Positions 3,041-19,346 of a DNA stretch of 24,569 bases are shown piece after piece. Source of the stretch: a virus. The translations under genes and the position numbers were made by a program. Every line of letters starts with the position of its first letter. The stretch's first letter is position 1. The stretch is taken from positions 1-24,569 of IMG/VR virus record IMGVR_UViG_3300037584_002567; one strand, written 5' to 3'. The notes under the pieces are model-generated. The model was given only the letters and a program-made list of their open reading frames with translations. It was not told where the DNA came from and ran no database searches.

Positions 3041-3084
3041 CCCGCAAGTCTTTGCGGGTGCGGGTGCTTGCGGGTGCGGGTGCT
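3041..3084. repeat. GC-rich direct repeats in a 3' untranslated region
   Basis: A 16-base unit, TTGCGGGTGCGGGTGC, occurs twice in a row from 3052 to 3083, itself made of GCGGGT steps. It is preceded by a hairpin CCCGCAA/TTGCGGG (3041-3058) with loop GTCT. The block is strikingly GC-rich for this genome. It sits between the stop codon of 3100-3369 and the terminator at 2981-3009, as the repeats at 1451-1498 and 3689-3717 do. Confidence 0.8.
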
Positions 3085-3099
3085 TAAATCTCTAATAAA

Positions 3100-3369
3100 T
3101 CATCTTCGCACTTCCTCAAAGTTGTAAGTTTTTTCTAAAATGTTCCGTACTCTCTCTCTGTCAATAGAATCGCCATCACCCCAAGTCCAAGTAGATTCGG
3201 GATTGTCTAAAAACAATTCATAATATTTTACAGCTTTTTTGATGTCAGTTTTTGTAAGTCTTTGCCCTGTTACCATTTGATGTAAGGGGTAAACAGCATA
3301 ACAAGAACCATAAAAGCTATAAACATAATCTATAAATTCTTGTTTTTGTGAAGCTAAGATAGTAGTCAT
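3100..3369 (-). CDS. Small hypothetical protein
   Basis: 89 residues. N-terminal helix (ASQKQEFIDYVYSFYG), then a basic segment TGQRLTKTDIKKAVKYYELFL (about 35-54) and a W-x-W-GDGDSIDRERVR stretch. It resembles small phage proteins of unknown role. Its start directly follows the stop of the 3370-3531 gene, with a GGAAG Shine-Dalgarno. Confidence 0.6.
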   Translation of the reverse strand: MTTILASQKQEFIDYVYSFYGSCYAVYPLHQMVTGQRLTKTDIKKAVKYYELFLDNPESTWTWGDGDSIDRERVRNILEKTYNFEEVRR

Positions 3370-6514: not shown

Positions 6515-7186
6515 TTAGAATAATATGCCTTGTATATTAGGTTTATAGGACGAATCATATCTTTCATTATCTCCTTTAGGATAGTTACAGACCTTGTATG
6601 CAAGCAAGTCTCTCATAGATTTAATTTCTTTGCGAGTGCCTAATAGATAGAAATATCTATGTTTTCTAGGTCTTTCTGTAATATAAAATCTATCCTTATC
6701 TTTCTGCCTTTCTTCTAATGTATATTGCTCACAAATAGTTTTACTATGTTTATTATTTCCTCTCATTCTCCATTCTGTTCTTTTATCTGATAAACCTGTA
6801 TAAATCCAATTAGTTGCCTGATAAATATATCCATGATGATTTTGTGAAGTATCTGCATAAGAGACTATTACTTTTGGTTTTGGCAATAATTTAAGTGATT
6901 GACTAACAAAAAAACTTAGCGAGTTTTTTTCTAAATTATCCTCAACACATAATCTATTTAACTCTAAAAAGTCTTCTTGATATTTGCCTTTAAATGCACC
7001 AACTACTAAAGGTTTAGAAGCGGGTGAGCCAAAACTTATAACACCTTGTAAAACATTATTATTGTCATAAAGTCCATAACAATAAGAAATACTAGGAATA
7101 CGTTTTGCATAATGCTTATTGTTAAACCAATCATGAGTCTCGAATCTCTTAATTGGTTTAACAGTAAAACTATCTTTAATTGTCAT
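6515..7186 (-). CDS. Mom-like DNA-modification protein
   Basis: 223 residues from ATG 7186. It matches my memory of Mom-family phage proteins (GNAT-related; phage Mu Mom makes N6-carbamoylmethyl-adenine and protects phage DNA from restriction). Visible landmarks are NKHYAKRIPS (23-32), a GLYDNNNVLQGVISFG strand pair (38-53), LELNRLCV (74-81), SFFVSQSLKLLPKPKVIVSYADT (91-113) and HHGYIYQATNW (117-127). The start at 7186 is chosen because its ATG overlaps the upstream stop (ATGA) and the protein then begins at the family-typical VKPI strand; 7225 is an alternative. Cytoplasmic. Whether this copy modifies adenine is untested. Confidence 0.72.
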   Translation of the reverse strand: MTIKDSFTVKPIKRFETHDWFNNKHYAKRIPSISYCYGLYDNNNVLQGVISFGSPASKPLVVGAFKGKYQEDFLELNRLCVEDNLEKNSLSFFVSQSLKLLPKPKVIVSYADTSQNHHGYIYQATNWIYTGLSDKRTEWRMRGNNKHSKTICEQYTLEERQKDKDRFYITERPRKHRYFYLLGTRKEIKSMRDLLAYKVCNYPKGDNERYDSSYKPNIQGILF

Positions 7187-7401
7187 CCTTGTAATTGGAT
7201 ACTCCAATTTTTTAATGAGTTCCAATCTAATCCAACACTTTGAATTGGTTCGGAATCAATTAAATCCAAATTAACGATAATTGAATGATTTGCTAAATCT
7301 ACAGAAAAACCTGTACATCTAAATTCTGTACCGTTTGTATTTGTAAACAATGAGCCAACAATCCAATTTAGATTAAGTTCTTGTGTTCCTTTTAAATTCA
7401 T
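7183..7401 (-). CDS. Small hypothetical protein
   Basis: 72 residues, beta-rich (IVGSLFTNTNGTEFRCTGFSVDLANHSIIVNLDLID), with no known domain. It directly precedes the Mom-like gene, overlaps it by ATGA and has a CAGGAG Shine-Dalgarno. Phage Mu mom has an upstream partner gene, com, that controls its translation, but this protein lacks the zinc-finger cysteines of Com, so no link can be claimed. Confidence 0.55.
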   Translation of the reverse strand: MNLKGTQELNLNWIVGSLFTNTNGTEFRCTGFSVDLANHSIIVNLDLIDSEPIQSVGLDWNSLKNWSIQLQG

Positions 7402-10581: not shown

Positions 10582-10809
10582 GGTGTCCATAGTGTCCATA
10601 GGTGTCCGACCTTTTTCTTAGGAGTTTCCTAATTCCTACGGTTTTCTATTATAGCCCCCTATTTCTCCCCTCTATCCCCCCTCTTCCTTATTTTATATAC
10701 TTTATAGGAATAGGTATGGACACTATAGACACGCTCGAAAACGGTTGGGCTGTAATCAGTTTCGGTGTCCATACGGTGTACCTACCTCATACAGAGGTCA
10801 GGACACTAT
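10582..10809. other. Iteron-like repeats, candidate replication origin
   Basis: GTGTCCATA repeats occur in direct orientation at 10582-10591, 10592-10600 and 10764-10773, with a near copy at 10601-10609 (GGTGTCCGA). Inverted copies lie at 10715-10723 (TATGGACAC), 10724-10732 (TATAGACAC) and 10801-10809 (GGACACTAT). Between them is a C/T-rich, then AT-rich tract (about 10650-10705) that could unwind. The cluster sits at the 3' end of the primase gene. Together these look like a Rep-bound origin; binding by the primase is inferred. Confidence 0.5.
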
Positions 10810-12949
10810 CCGAGTCTCGAATGTAGACCCATTTGCGACAACTTTTAGTACCTCTTCTCTTTTTTTCGTAGCCAAGATTTTTTAAAATTGTTGCAACTTG
10901 CATCTGGTCATATCTAGTTTGTCTTTCTATTGGTTTTTCTATTGCTTCTGTAAGGACGCTTTCTGTTGTAAGTTCTCTATGTCTATTAGATGGTGCATCT
11001 AAAAATTGTTCGATAACAGATTTCCAAGGAGATTCGATAAGGTAATCTAAATTTTCCTCGTTTACTATCAATTCGTTTTCTTTTGTAAGGTATGTAGACT
11101 CTCCATTTTTGTAAGCCATTACTGCGGATGCCCAAATTTGGTCACGCTCTTTTTCTAGGCTTTCAATGTCTATCGGGTTTTCTATGGTGACGTTTTCGCC
11201 TAATTTTATGATCCAGAATCTACGATTCCCAGTTTCATCAACAAGAAATCCATCATGTCTGTTAGTAGATCCAACAATGATTCCTCTTCTAGGGAACTCT
11301 TCCGTTACTTTTCCGTAAGGAACTCTAAAGACATCTGTTTTTTGCGAGAGGAAAGATTTTATATCTCCCGCCATTTTTTTAGATGTTATGCTTTCCAACT
11401 CGGCTAGCTCACAAATCCAACTGCGATGAAGAATCATTAGTGCATCTTTTCCATTTATGTCTCGAAGACCATCACTAAAAAATTCTTGTCCGAGTGTGTA
11501 CCAGAAAGATGATTTCCTTGCTCCTTGCTCTCCAAGTAAAACACAAGCGTTATCAAATTTATGTCCTTCTGGTTTGTATGCTCTTGCGACTGCTGCTATC
11601 AGAGTCTTTTTTAACATGTCATCATAAATTGTTGGATTAGGAAGATCCTTTTCTTCTGGTCTGAGATATGTGCTTGCGAGTCTGTCTATGTAAGCGGGAA
11701 GTTCTGTTGTATAAACTTTTTCTAAGTAGTCAACTACAGGATTGTATTCATTTTCTCTTGCTACTTGTACTACACAGTCAAAGGCTGTGTCCTTATTACA
11801 TTTATATCCAAGTCTTGCGAGTGTTAGATAATATCTGTCTATTGAAGTTGAACCCTGACAAGGAACACCATCAAGTTCTATTTGTTGGGTGAAGATATTA
11901 TATCTAAATGCGTGTTCTCCATTGTCTCTATGTGACTTAAGTAGATTTAATAATTCGTTTGCTTCTATTCTTTGTAATTTATCTGATTCTATAAGTTTTG
12001 GATTATCTGGATTATCTGGATTAATAACTTTAATTGTTTTCTTTGGTTTATAGCCATGTTCAATAGCCCAATACCAAAAAGAACCCGCATTAATTTGTAC
12101 ACCTCCTGACTTTGCTACTTGATCTATACCTCCCCAATCTGGTGAATGTTGCTTCATAAGTGCAACTGCATCTCCCGCATTTTTGCCCGCATCTTCACAT
12201 GCTTTAATTAAGCCCCATAAGATGTTTCTATACATGTGATAGGTGTTGGTATTTGGTTTGCGTGGTGGAATATATGCGAGTGCTTTTTCTACTGTTGCTA
12301 TATCTTCTTTACGATATTCTTTAAAATTTGAAGAAGATTTATTTTTTTCGTGTTGCTTTTTTGTAGGTAAGCAAGACTCTATATCCTTAAGAGTGTATTT
12401 AACATCTGATTGATGTATTATCTTAGTCATAGCAGAGGGAGTGCCATCTTCTTTCATGTGATATGTGCCTGGTAATCGCATAACTCTTGATGGATTTTTT
12501 AAGGCTCTATCTGCATCTGCATGATCTAATAATCGCTCTTGGATAGGTTTCCAAGTTTCTGGATCTATTGCTTTTTTTAAGACCCAATAGTTGTGTATTG
12601 ATTTACCTCCTGTATCAATTTGAAGAGATGGTTCTGGCAAGCCTATTTCTTTCCAAATCCATAGTTGTTGCTCTTTCGATATATCGTCATGCTCATAAAA
12701 AAAAGCTCGGCAAGCTGTTATTGATGAGTCTGTATCTTCTCCATCATTAATTACGACATAAACACCACGACCTTCTTCTTGACAATGTTTAATCCAATCT
12801 CCATTTGCGTCAGACTTTTTACCTCTATCTCTTTCTTTTAATGGGTGTCCTTTAGGAAAGAATGACCGAAGTCTGACTTTGTTAATATCCTTTCCAAGTT
12901 GACTAAGAAATGACCGCCATTCGTTACGGTCTAAATTTAATAAAGACAT
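10787..12949 (-). CDS. VapE-type primase-helicase
   Basis: 720 residues. The N-terminal 160 have archaeo-eukaryotic primase features: a F-x-EHDD motif (about 84-89, metal ligands) and SIHNYW (117-122, the conserved histidine). A linker with a PriCT-like helical domain (about 215-300) follows. The C-terminal VirE/VapE ATPase has Walker A GEQGARKS (473-480), Walker B-like ELAELE (514-519) and a NRRFW motif (576-580) as a possible arginine finger. The fusion of primase and helicase initiates DNA replication in many phages and plasmids. Start ATG 12949 follows TTTATCTTT. The candidate origin lies at its 3' end. Confidence 0.85.
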   Translation of the reverse strand: MSLLNLDRNEWRSFLSQLGKDINKVRLRSFFPKGHPLKERDRGKKSDANGDWIKHCQEEGRGVYVVINDGEDTDSSITACRAFFYEHDDISKEQQLWIWKEIGLPEPSLQIDTGGKSIHNYWVLKKAIDPETWKPIQERLLDHADADRALKNPSRVMRLPGTYHMKEDGTPSAMTKIIHQSDVKYTLKDIESCLPTKKQHEKNKSSSNFKEYRKEDIATVEKALAYIPPRKPNTNTYHMYRNILWGLIKACEDAGKNAGDAVALMKQHSPDWGGIDQVAKSGGVQINAGSFWYWAIEHGYKPKKTIKVINPDNPDNPKLIESDKLQRIEANELLNLLKSHRDNGEHAFRYNIFTQQIELDGVPCQGSTSIDRYYLTLARLGYKCNKDTAFDCVVQVARENEYNPVVDYLEKVYTTELPAYIDRLASTYLRPEEKDLPNPTIYDDMLKKTLIAAVARAYKPEGHKFDNACVLLGEQGARKSSFWYTLGQEFFSDGLRDINGKDALMILHRSWICELAELESITSKKMAGDIKSFLSQKTDVFRVPYGKVTEEFPRRGIIVGSTNRHDGFLVDETGNRRFWIIKLGENVTIENPIDIESLEKERDQIWASAVMAYKNGESTYLTKENELIVNEENLDYLIESPWKSVIEQFLDAPSNRHRELTTESVLTEAIEKPIERQTRYDQMQVATILKNLGYEKKRRGTKSCRKWVYIRDSDSVLTSV

Positions 12950-17829: not shown

Positions 17830-17956
17830 TGTGGCATTAGGGAAGGGAGTCGAAGCCTGTCTGTAACCCTATGTAAGTCCACACTTACGATTGGTTGACA
17901 TCTGTTGTCTTCTATTCCGTTGATCTAACATCATAGTTTGCCTGTACTTAACAGGC
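17830..17956 (+). ncRNA. Array unit 0, divergent copy upstream of the RAMP-like gene
   Basis: It has the same design as units 1-5. P1 is TGTGG (17830-17834) with CCACA (17879-17883), inside which CAT (17835-17837), P2 (TAGGG/CCCTA, 17838-17842 and 17867-17871, here a long arm of about 34 nt) and TGTAAGT (17872-17878) occur in order. A variable segment (17884-17934) follows. The 3' hairpin GCCTGT-ACTTA-ACAGGC is at 17940-17956. P1 and P2 differ in sequence from the other units, but the pairing and the CAT/TGTAAGT core are kept. It starts 3 bases after the SSB-like stop. Confidence 0.72.
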
Positions 17957-17986: not shown

Positions 17987-18658
17987 ATGGCACTTTACAA
18001 AGTCCTCGGAACACTAGAAGGTATTACACCAATACAACTTCAAAATCCAATGTATCAGCATCCATCAGAACCGCTATACAAAATCCGTACACCTATTTCA
18101 CAAAAAAGAAAAAAGACCGAAGAAGATCATATAACTCTTTCTAAATTAGATTTTCTTATGTCTTGTCATTGGGCTGTAGATAGTACTGACGATTGTGATT
18201 GTACTGTTGATACAAATGGGAATGTATCTTTCACAGGTTTTAAAGATCCATATATGCCCGCAGAAATGTTGCGTAAGTCAATAAGAAACTCTGCAAAAGC
18301 ACTTAACAACAGGAAAGGGGCTGCGTTTGATAGAGGTGTAACTGTCTCAGAAGATATGCTTCTTAATTATGACGGTGCAAAAGATTGCAATGGTATGTGG
18401 AATGACAAACTTTGGGTTAGGTTACGAGGTGAAAGATCTGGTAGTTTGATATGGATCACTAGGGTAAAGATACCTCAATGGTCAGTTAATTTTTCATTAA
18501 CTTGTGATACAAGTCAGGTTGAGATTTCAGAATTAGAAACTATGCTTAAAGCTAGTGGAAAATATTCTGGTGTTGGAAGTTATAGACCTGAGAATGGTGG
18601 CAATGCGGGAAAGTTTGAGGTTACTGAGTTTGAATACGAAGAGATAGCATTGATTTAA
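17987..18658 (+). CDS. RAMP/Cas7-like phage protein (candidate RNA-binding effector)
   Basis: 223 residues. Features that recall the RAMP/Cas7 superfamily are a start strand YKVLGTLEGITPIQLQ (4-19), a helix MPAEMLRKSIRNSAKALN (90-107) like the LKGALR helix of RAMPs, and a C-terminal glycine-rich loop GVGSYRPENGGNAGKFEV (195-212). A W-x-V-N-F strand precedes the loop. I also know this signature from a large family of phage proteins annotated as hypothetical. It is flanked by the six structured array units, its stop lies 3 bases before unit 1, and a TTTTTTATCTCTAAACTT leader precedes the ATG. It probably binds the array RNA. The family assignment is by eye and moderate. Confidence 0.5.
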   Translation: MALYKVLGTLEGITPIQLQNPMYQHPSEPLYKIRTPISQKRKKTEEDHITLSKLDFLMSCHWAVDSTDDCDCTVDTNGNVSFTGFKDPYMPAEMLRKSIRNSAKALNNRKGAAFDRGVTVSEDMLLNYDGAKDCNGMWNDKLWVRLRGERSGSLIWITRVKIPQWSVNFSLTCDTSQVEISELETMLKASGKYSGVGSYRPENGGNAGKFEVTEFEYEEIALI

Positions 18659-18661
18659 ATT

Positions 18662-18787
18662 TCTAGGCATCTTCGGTGTAAGTCCTAGATTTATCTTACT
18701 TTGGCTTCGCTTGACATAGGATGAGATATTTTACCTTGAATTGAGTTATGTCGACCTAACTTACAAGTCCGCCTGTACTTAACAGGC
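18662..18787 (+). ncRNA. Array unit 1
   Basis: P1 TCTAGG/CCTAGA (18662-18667, 18684-18689), CAT, tetraloop-like P2 CTTCGG (18671-18676) and TGTAAGT (18677-18683). The variable segment is 18690-18764 and can itself fold (GACATA with TATGTC, about 18712-18753). The 3' hairpin is at 18771-18787 with loop ACTTA. It begins 3 bases after the RAMP-like stop codon. Confidence 0.75.
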
Positions 18788-18800
18788 AACAATATTTTCA

Positions 18801-18918
18801 CTAGGCATAGATCATCCCTTGTAAGTCCTAGATTAAGTTAAGTTGATTTCTCGTCTTTTTTTTTACATTGCCTTGCGTTCTTTTAACTTAAACTACAAGT
18901 TTGGCTGTACTTAACAGC
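18801..18918 (+). ncRNA. Array unit 2
   Basis: P1 CTAGG/CCTAG (18801-18805, 18827-18831), CAT, a longer P2 loop (18809-18819) and TGTAAGT (18820-18826). The variable segment 18832-18895 includes TTAAGTTAA near its start and TTAACTTAA near its end, which can pair over 9 bp. The 3' hairpin (18903-18919) has GCTGT/ACAGC with a C-to-G change compensated by G-to-C relative to unit 1. Confidence 0.72.
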
Positions 18919-18928
18919 TACAAGTTTC

Positions 18929-19052
18929 ACTAGGCATCTAATAGTATAAGTCCTAGTATTTCCTTACCTTTGAATCTTTTTTCATCGCATATCTTATTTT
19001 GCATTTCTTTATTTTAGCTTAATTTGCAAGTTTGCCTGTACTACAACAGGCA
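18929..19052 (+). ncRNA. Array unit 3
   Basis: P1 ACTAGG/CCTAGT (18929-18934, 18952-18957), CAT, P2 CTAATAG and TATAAGT (18945-18951). The outer pair is A-T where unit 1 has T-A, a compensatory change. The variable segment is 18958-19026. The 3' hairpin TGCCTGT/ACAGGCA (19033-19052) has the aberrant loop ACTACA, so only three of the five loop-to-core pairs remain. Confidence 0.72.
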
Positions 19053-19062
19053 CAATTTTTTG

Positions 19063-19206
19063 CTAGGCATCTTTGGTGTAAGTCCTAGATATGTTCCATT
19101 ATCATATTATTCCTTGGCCTATTTTCCCTTAAGTTAGATTTTCCTATTTTCCCCTCGGTTAAGACTTCTTACCATGTGTTTCAAGTTTGGCTGTACTTAA
19201 CAGCCA
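19063..19206 (+). ncRNA. Array unit 4
   Basis: P1 CTAGG/CCTAG (19063-19067, 19084-19088), CAT, P2 CTTTGG, TGTAAGT (19077-19083). The longest variable segment (19089-19181, 93 nt) is rich in CCTT and CCCC runs. The 3' hairpin TGGCTGT-ACTTA-ACAGCCA (19188-19206) carries the same compensated pair as unit 2, here with a 7-bp stem. Confidence 0.75.
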
Positions 19207-19217
19207 CAGAATTTATA

Positions 19218-19346
19218 CTAGGCATCCTCGGTGTAAGTCCTAGATTGGGTTATTATAATTTGCCTTTCATTGGCTTGTATTCCCTTAGATTAATGTGTAT
19301 TTTAATCCGATCACTTAACTTTTAAGTTTGCCTGTACTTAACAGGC
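19218..19346 (+). ncRNA. Array unit 5
   Basis: P1 CTAGG/CCTAG (19218-19222, 19239-19243), CAT, P2 CCTCGG, TGTAAGT (19232-19238). The variable segment 19244-19323 contains an internal hairpin GATTAA/TTAATC. The 3' hairpin GCCTGT-ACTTA-ACAGGC is at 19330-19346. The TTATTTTTTATCTTTAATC leader and the next gene follow within 26 bases, as the RAMP-like gene follows unit 0. Confidence 0.75.

Follow-up and report, generated by a model that had tools for sequence, protein, structure and literature searches.

The window, that is, the whole 24.6-kb stretch of DNA analysed here, is a fragment from an uncultured virus. It contains six related units, in each of which a variable tract separates a 5' hairpin (P1-P2) from a 3' hairpin ( Table 1 ). 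The 5' hairpin is composed of a 5-bp P1, a variable P2 and a conserved 3' bulge, UAAGU. The 3' hairpin has 6 bp, G[C/G]CUGU-loop-ACAG[G/C]C, and is located 56-100 nt beyond the 5' hairpin. The original prediction had assigned all six units to the interval 18662-19346. This interval, however, covers only units 1-5, which stand in tandem at 18663-19346, whereas unit 0 stands alone at 17830-17956. The gene of a Vipr homologue lies between unit 0 and unit 1, and a candidate vap gene follows the array. The comparisons below are based on a set of 42 non-identical units from the source phage and about a dozen related marine IMG/VR contigs.

Table 1. Positions of the guide units and of the associated genes in the window.
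Feature	Position	Strand	Method
Unit 0, 5' hairpin element (P1 TGTGG/CCACA, long P2, 3' bulge UAAGU)	17830..17883	+	
Unit 0, pentanucleotide tract, 11 words	17884..17939	+	
Unit 0, 3' hairpin tail GCCTGTACTTAACAGGC	17940..17956	+	
vipr homologue, 223 aa, phrog_4652, C-terminal G-rich motif SGVGSYRPENGG	17987..18658	+	profile match, hhalign, tblastn
Unit 1, 5' hairpin element P1-P2	18663..18688	+	
Unit 1, pentanucleotide tract, 16 words	18689..18770	+	
Unit 1, 3' hairpin tail	18771..18787	+	
Unit 2, 5' hairpin element	18801..18831	+	
Unit 2, pentanucleotide tract, 14 words	18832..18902	+	
Unit 2, 3' hairpin tail (GGCTGT/ACAGCT)	18903..18919	+	
Unit 3, 5' hairpin element, C/A mismatch at first P2 pair	18930..18956	+	
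Unit 3, pentanucleotide tract, 15 words	18957..19033	+	
Unit 3, 3' hairpin tail, 6-nt loop	19034..19051	+	
Unit 4, 5' hairpin element	19063..19088	+	
Unit 4, pentanucleotide tract, 20 words	19089..19188	+	
Unit 4, 3' hairpin tail (GGCTGT/ACAGCC)	19189..19205	+	
Unit 5, 5' hairpin element	19218..19243	+	
Unit 5, pentanucleotide tract, 17 words; sole array tract kept in most relatives	19244..19329	+	
Unit 5, 3' hairpin tail	19330..19346	+	
Candidate vap (accessory) gene, 167 aa, winged-helix-like + long helices	19372..19875	+	AlphaFold, Foldseek/BFVD

The VIPR system, first described in a 2026 preprint and known since April 2026, consists of phage-encoded RAMP proteins (Vipr) and of vrRNAs, which are described there as ending in a structured 3' tail after 9-16 YNNGG words (PMC13142463). 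VIPR is proposed as an ancestor of CRISPR. A protein profile made only from the marine sequences matched PDB entry 36pp, "SUSP1 Vipr protein", with E=3.5e-12 in a profile search, and hhalign against the Vipr homologues of seven phages gave 99.4% (E=5e-21). The tblastn matches were in Suspvirus/Felixounavirus, Gordonia, Mycobacterium, Pseudomonas and Vibrio phages. The marine protein and the known Vipr homologues have invariant residues in common, and in the G-rich C-terminal region GVGSYRPENGG aligns with GVGDWRPRFG. By homology, the gene between units 0 and 1 encodes the marine counterpart of the CRISPR-RAMP-like protein known as Vipr in SUSP1. The AlphaFold model of the marine protein had a pLDDT of 30, so its RAMP fold, expected to comprise an RRM core, a G-loop and a thumb, is predicted from sequence homology.

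The gene after the array was analysed through its predicted structure (AlphaFold pLDDT 86). Its best named Foldseek/BFVD matches came from Gordonia phage Trine and Escherichia phage adrianh, where the matching proteins are encoded beside vipr; each of these two fold matches had E=0.03, with a probability of 0.98-1.0. A sequence-profile comparison with vipr-adjacent proteins gave no match (hhalign 0.2%). Because the best named fold matches adjoin vipr in other phages, we regard the product as a candidate Vap, the accessory protein.

In the 3' hairpin, pair 2 is C-G in units 0, 1, 3 and 5 and G-C in units 2 and 4, as had been predicted; the closing pair of unit 2 is G-U. All six stem pairs are standard in 42/42 units, with pair 2 being CG in 30 and GC in 12, and pair 1 being GC in 36, GU in 4 and AU in 2. 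A covariation test on the 27 distinct rows bore out the predicted compensatory changes, with a score of 0.203 against 0.081 for shuffled rows, and 0/500 shuffles reached 0.203. In the same rows, the true partner was 100% paired and a slid partner gave a score of about 0.03 or less. Three observations, the double changes at two pairs, the complete pairing in all units and a loop length that varies between 5 and 6 nt, lend good support to selection on RNA (or single-strand) structure in the 3' hairpin. The original prediction had stated that such changes prove conserved hairpins. This wording is too strong, because kin units yield few independent events.

The 5' hairpin gave a less uniform result. 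As had been noted, the P1 strands are TGTGG/CCACA in unit 0, whereas units 1-5 have CTAGG/CCTAG. The double changes, however, amount to one contrast and not to many, since pairs 1-3 change on both sides but every change stems from the unit-0 lineage. An outer P1 pair had also been proposed, T-A in unit 1 and A-T in unit 3. This claim was chosen from two units; the two positions are A/A in units 2 and 5 and G/A in unit 4, and they are paired in only 13 of the 42 units. Structure selection on P1 is moderately supported. P2 was said to differ in sequence and length in every unit and yet to pair. In fact, units 1, 4 and 5 have a P2 of equal length and nearly identical sequence, the first pair in unit 3 is the C/A mismatch, and the fold in unit 2 is weak. 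The evidence for structure selection on P2 is weak. The general claim that selection acts on RNA structure is supported for the hairpins to these differing degrees, but it overlooked the main constraint, which is a 5-nt register between the hairpins.

Several other readings of the hairpins were considered. Rfam searches at gathering and relaxed thresholds returned chance matches only and no known RNA family, and a tRNA/tmRNA search found none. A pseudoknot tail of the published SUSP1 type was not seen in the marine units. A bulge-loop pseudoknot between UAAGU and ACUUA is conceivable but finds no support: the loop variants ACUAUA and ACUACA break the pairing, the variants UAAGC and GCUUA never co-occur, and there is no covariation. 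Matches to the unit pattern in a Prochlorococcus podovirus and an acidobacterial MAG were coding or random sequence and contained no units. Eukaryote-like splice signals (GTAAGT, TACTAAC-like, CAG) are regarded as coincidence, since this is phage DNA, and a boxA-like reading of the hairpin loop was set aside.

The tract between the hairpins is a phased array of pentanucleotides, U-NN-N-(U/A), with 11-29 words in the 42 units and 11-20 in the window. It is T-rich (48%), whereas the coding sequence is A-rich, and its content differs from unit to unit. The autocorrelation of T over all units showed peaks at lags 5, 10, 15 and 20, with z of 15-19 relative to dinucleotide shuffles; the six units of the window alone gave z of 4.5-6.5, and the strongest period-5 T signals of the window were all found inside the array. 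In 40/42 units the words keep a fixed phase relative to the 3' hairpin. It is this register test that can be relied on, since uncertain gap placement weakened a gap-length comparison of aligned pairs. Divided from its 3' hairpin backwards, unit 5 gives the words TTGGG TTATT ATAAT TTGCC TTTCA TTGGC TTGTA TTCCC TTAGA TTAAT GTGTA TTTTA ATCCG ATCAC TTAAC TTTTA AGTTT.

Position 2 of the word is T in 96% and C in 4%, and never A or G. Position 1 is T in 71% and A in 18%, and positions 3-5 are open. The base compositions of position 3 (A.32, C.18, G.28, T.21) and position 4 (A.28, C.27, G.18, T.27) are close to those of N1 (A.38, C.10, G.29, T.24) and N2 (A.27, C.24, G.19, T.30) in the GGY/NN tracts of other phages. 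Among orthologous guides, position 2 is almost frozen (4 events in 158 columns), position 5 is the freest (41/165), and positions 3-4 are intermediate (46/318) with relatively more transitions. The difference between positions 3-4 and position 5 gave p=0.006 for rate and 0.02 for transitions, the guide pairs being partly non-independent. The lower rate and the transition bias at positions 3-4 would fit a tolerance of G-U wobble in the pairing with a target. On the basis of the pyrimidine at position 2, the NN-like composition and the substitution pattern, we read the word as given above. TA, TG and CA are depleted at word positions 3-4 only (z -6.2), which could suit coding targets read at codon positions 1-2. 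We give this observation little weight, because the same depletion was absent from the GGY control tracts. The most fitting view of the hairpins is that they cap both ends of a guide RNA whose informative part lies between them.

The guides change far faster than the genes beside them, even between phages that are nearly identical elsewhere. The DNA of the vipr ORF is 96% identical between the source phage and a relative (L003), but most guides of the array are unalignable. The interiors are mosaics of segments common to units at different places, always in sense; for example, the unit at L008:983 is a composite of stretches found in the units L003:3076 and L003:3224. Most relatives retain unit 0 and the last unit, and the array contains 2 to 5 units among them. 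This rapid guide turnover points to an arms race.

In SUSP1, the genes are preceded by one vrRNA and followed by three, all of them reported as transcribed RNAs (PMC13142463). According to the preprint, the NN bases pair with DNA, one target base is skipped per word and the GG scaffold remains unpaired; its main text states that all VIPR types use GGY/NN "or a related consensus" (fig. S17) (PMC13142463). When the vipr flanks were checked, GGY/NN words were found in SUSP1, SUSP2, LittleE, MakoManhole and others. The marine locus is similar to SUSP1 VIPR in its homologous Vipr, its phage-borne location, the single guide unit upstream with an array downstream, the pentanucleotide words with a pyrimidine followed by two variable bases, the structured 3' tail and a candidate accessory gene of DNA-binding type. 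The word, however, is U-NN-N-(U/A) instead of Y-NN-GG. The marine guides depart from the GGY/NN of the published main text in that the pyrimidine before NN is kept and the GG is lost, and they have 11-29 words, compared with the 9-16 given in the preprint. The marine tail is a simple 6-bp hairpin and not the pseudoknot of SUSP1, and the 5' hairpin carries the conserved UAAGU 3' bulge. The marine Vipr is about 25% identical and has an extra insertion of about 20 residues. The candidate vap is located after the array and not beside vipr, and the phage is marine.

A 5' hairpin is not peculiar to the marine units. In SUSP1 (L231) and SUSP2 (L230), a 5' hairpin with a similar core precedes the words in 8/8 vrRNA units, and its outer stem occurs in two alternative compensated forms, TTAAAAG/CTTTTAA and CACTTAA/TTAAGTG. 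The main text of the preprint describes only the 3' tail of the SUSP1 vrRNAs (PMC13142463). Vibrio phage 1.266.O likewise has pentanucleotide tracts on both sides of a Vipr homologue, and their scaffold, too, is not GGY. Its GCA/NN words (2152-2473 and 3065-3309 of locus L236) represent a second departure from the main consensus; the scaffold is GCA (GC-A/NN) and not U-rich, and the 5' and tail elements are different from the marine ones. In actinophages, the VIPR tails resemble tRNA minihelices, with an acceptor-like stem and a T-arm with a TTCGA loop. Such tails are present in Mycobacterium phage LittleE (3631-3994 of locus L234) and in Gordonia phage MakoManhole (1641-1772 and 2885-3235 of locus L232), suggesting possible processing by tRNA enzymes.

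Other guide systems offer partial parallels. In class 1 CRISPR systems (Cascade/Csm), the crRNA is an end-capped guide on a RAMP filament with periodic unpaired bases, an account that comes partly from the VIPR preprint. The working mode proposed for the marine system is similar, but the marine locus contains neither repeats nor Cas genes, its reading would be noncontiguous and its period is 5 and not 6. TIGR-Tas arrays are also phage-associated guide arrays; at the marine locus, in contrast, no Tas protein and no short two-spacer units were seen.

These features should be weighed against explanations that involve no guide. The units are intergenic, lie on the coding strand and end just ahead of the start codons of the next genes, and their hairpins covary. 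They could therefore form an array of cis-acting structured leaders or intergenic elements (riboswitch-like, or hairpins for mRNA processing or stability) acting on the flanking genes, with the interior as a mere spacer. A 5-nt phased array locked to the hairpin is unlike a spacer, however, and it is difficult to reconcile this reading with a varying number of units and with interiors that turn over next to an ORF that is 96% identical; Rfam also gave no match. We consider such cis-acting elements very unlikely. The 5-nt spacing with one near-invariant base per word would also be found in a non-guide decoy or scaffold RNA bound by a ring or filament protein that covers 5 nt at a time, as with TRAP on (G/U)AG, where the U would matter and NN would be uninformative. 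The number of words, from 11 to 29, is unlike a closed ring, and orthologous guides keep positions 3-4 better than position 5. In addition, the protein encoded between the units is a homologue of Vipr, which the preprint reports as the reader of pentanucleotide guide words (PMC13142463). The decoy or scaffold seems very improbable indeed.

It is also conceivable that the array functions only as DNA, as a replication origin, a partition site or a set of protein-binding dyads. Operator half-sites would show symmetric dyad changes as well, and the array adjoins recombination genes. The variation in the 3' hairpin loop, however, argues against a protein dyad with fixed spacing on DNA, and the widely varying length of P2 breaks such spacing as well. 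Where interiors resemble one another, they always do so in the sense direction, and the order of the locus is that of SUSP1, in which the equivalent regions are reported in the preprint as transcribed (PMC13142463). An element acting purely at the DNA level is extremely unlikely.

We therefore hold it very probable that the array is a vrRNA guide array of a phage VIPR system. Its most likely function would be RNA-guided binding of the DNA of competitor phages or satellites. The six units may be transcribed as one RNA, which would be cut within the AU-rich linkers. Vipr subunits would then polymerise on the tract, one per five bases. Each subunit would grip the conserved U, so that word positions 3-4 stay available for base pairing with DNA; as in SUSP1, this pairing would probably pass over one target base for every word. 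The two hairpins would cap the ends of the filament, the Vap-like protein might assist the complex, and the genes silenced by the complex would be those of phages or satellites competing within the same host. A target search in about 2 Mb of loci and relatives' contigs found none, with several read positions and skip lengths giving nothing beyond shuffled guides, and tblastn of the predicted wobble-skip peptides against INPHARED gave no significant match.

Whether the guide code itself is new is a separate matter. It seems fairly probable that the marine phages represent a VIPR clade with a new code, in which the GG is replaced by one conserved uridine and a loose U/A, a guide has up to 28 words and a 5' hairpin serves as a cap. 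The scaffold bases would then necessarily be read differently by Vipr, and the skip rule may differ. A marine clade that has the register and the pyrimidine without the GG would show which parts of the code are essential. The conserved last guide, together with interchangeable words, offers a direct route to the code via target search, and a uridine scaffold could broaden the sequence space of guide tools.

Some further observations concern the phage and its population. The related contigs IMGVR 3300020392_000217/218, 3300020282_000034 and 3300030099_003530 end inside the array, as would be expected if the array content varies within the population. The window also encodes a Mom-like DNA modification protein (6515-7225, minus strand; phrog_1384, E 8e-59), and the phage may thus modify its own DNA. 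The primase/helicase (10787-12949, minus strand) is closest to that of Synechococcus phage S-LBS1, with 57% over the C-terminal half, a similarity hinting at a cyanobacterial host.
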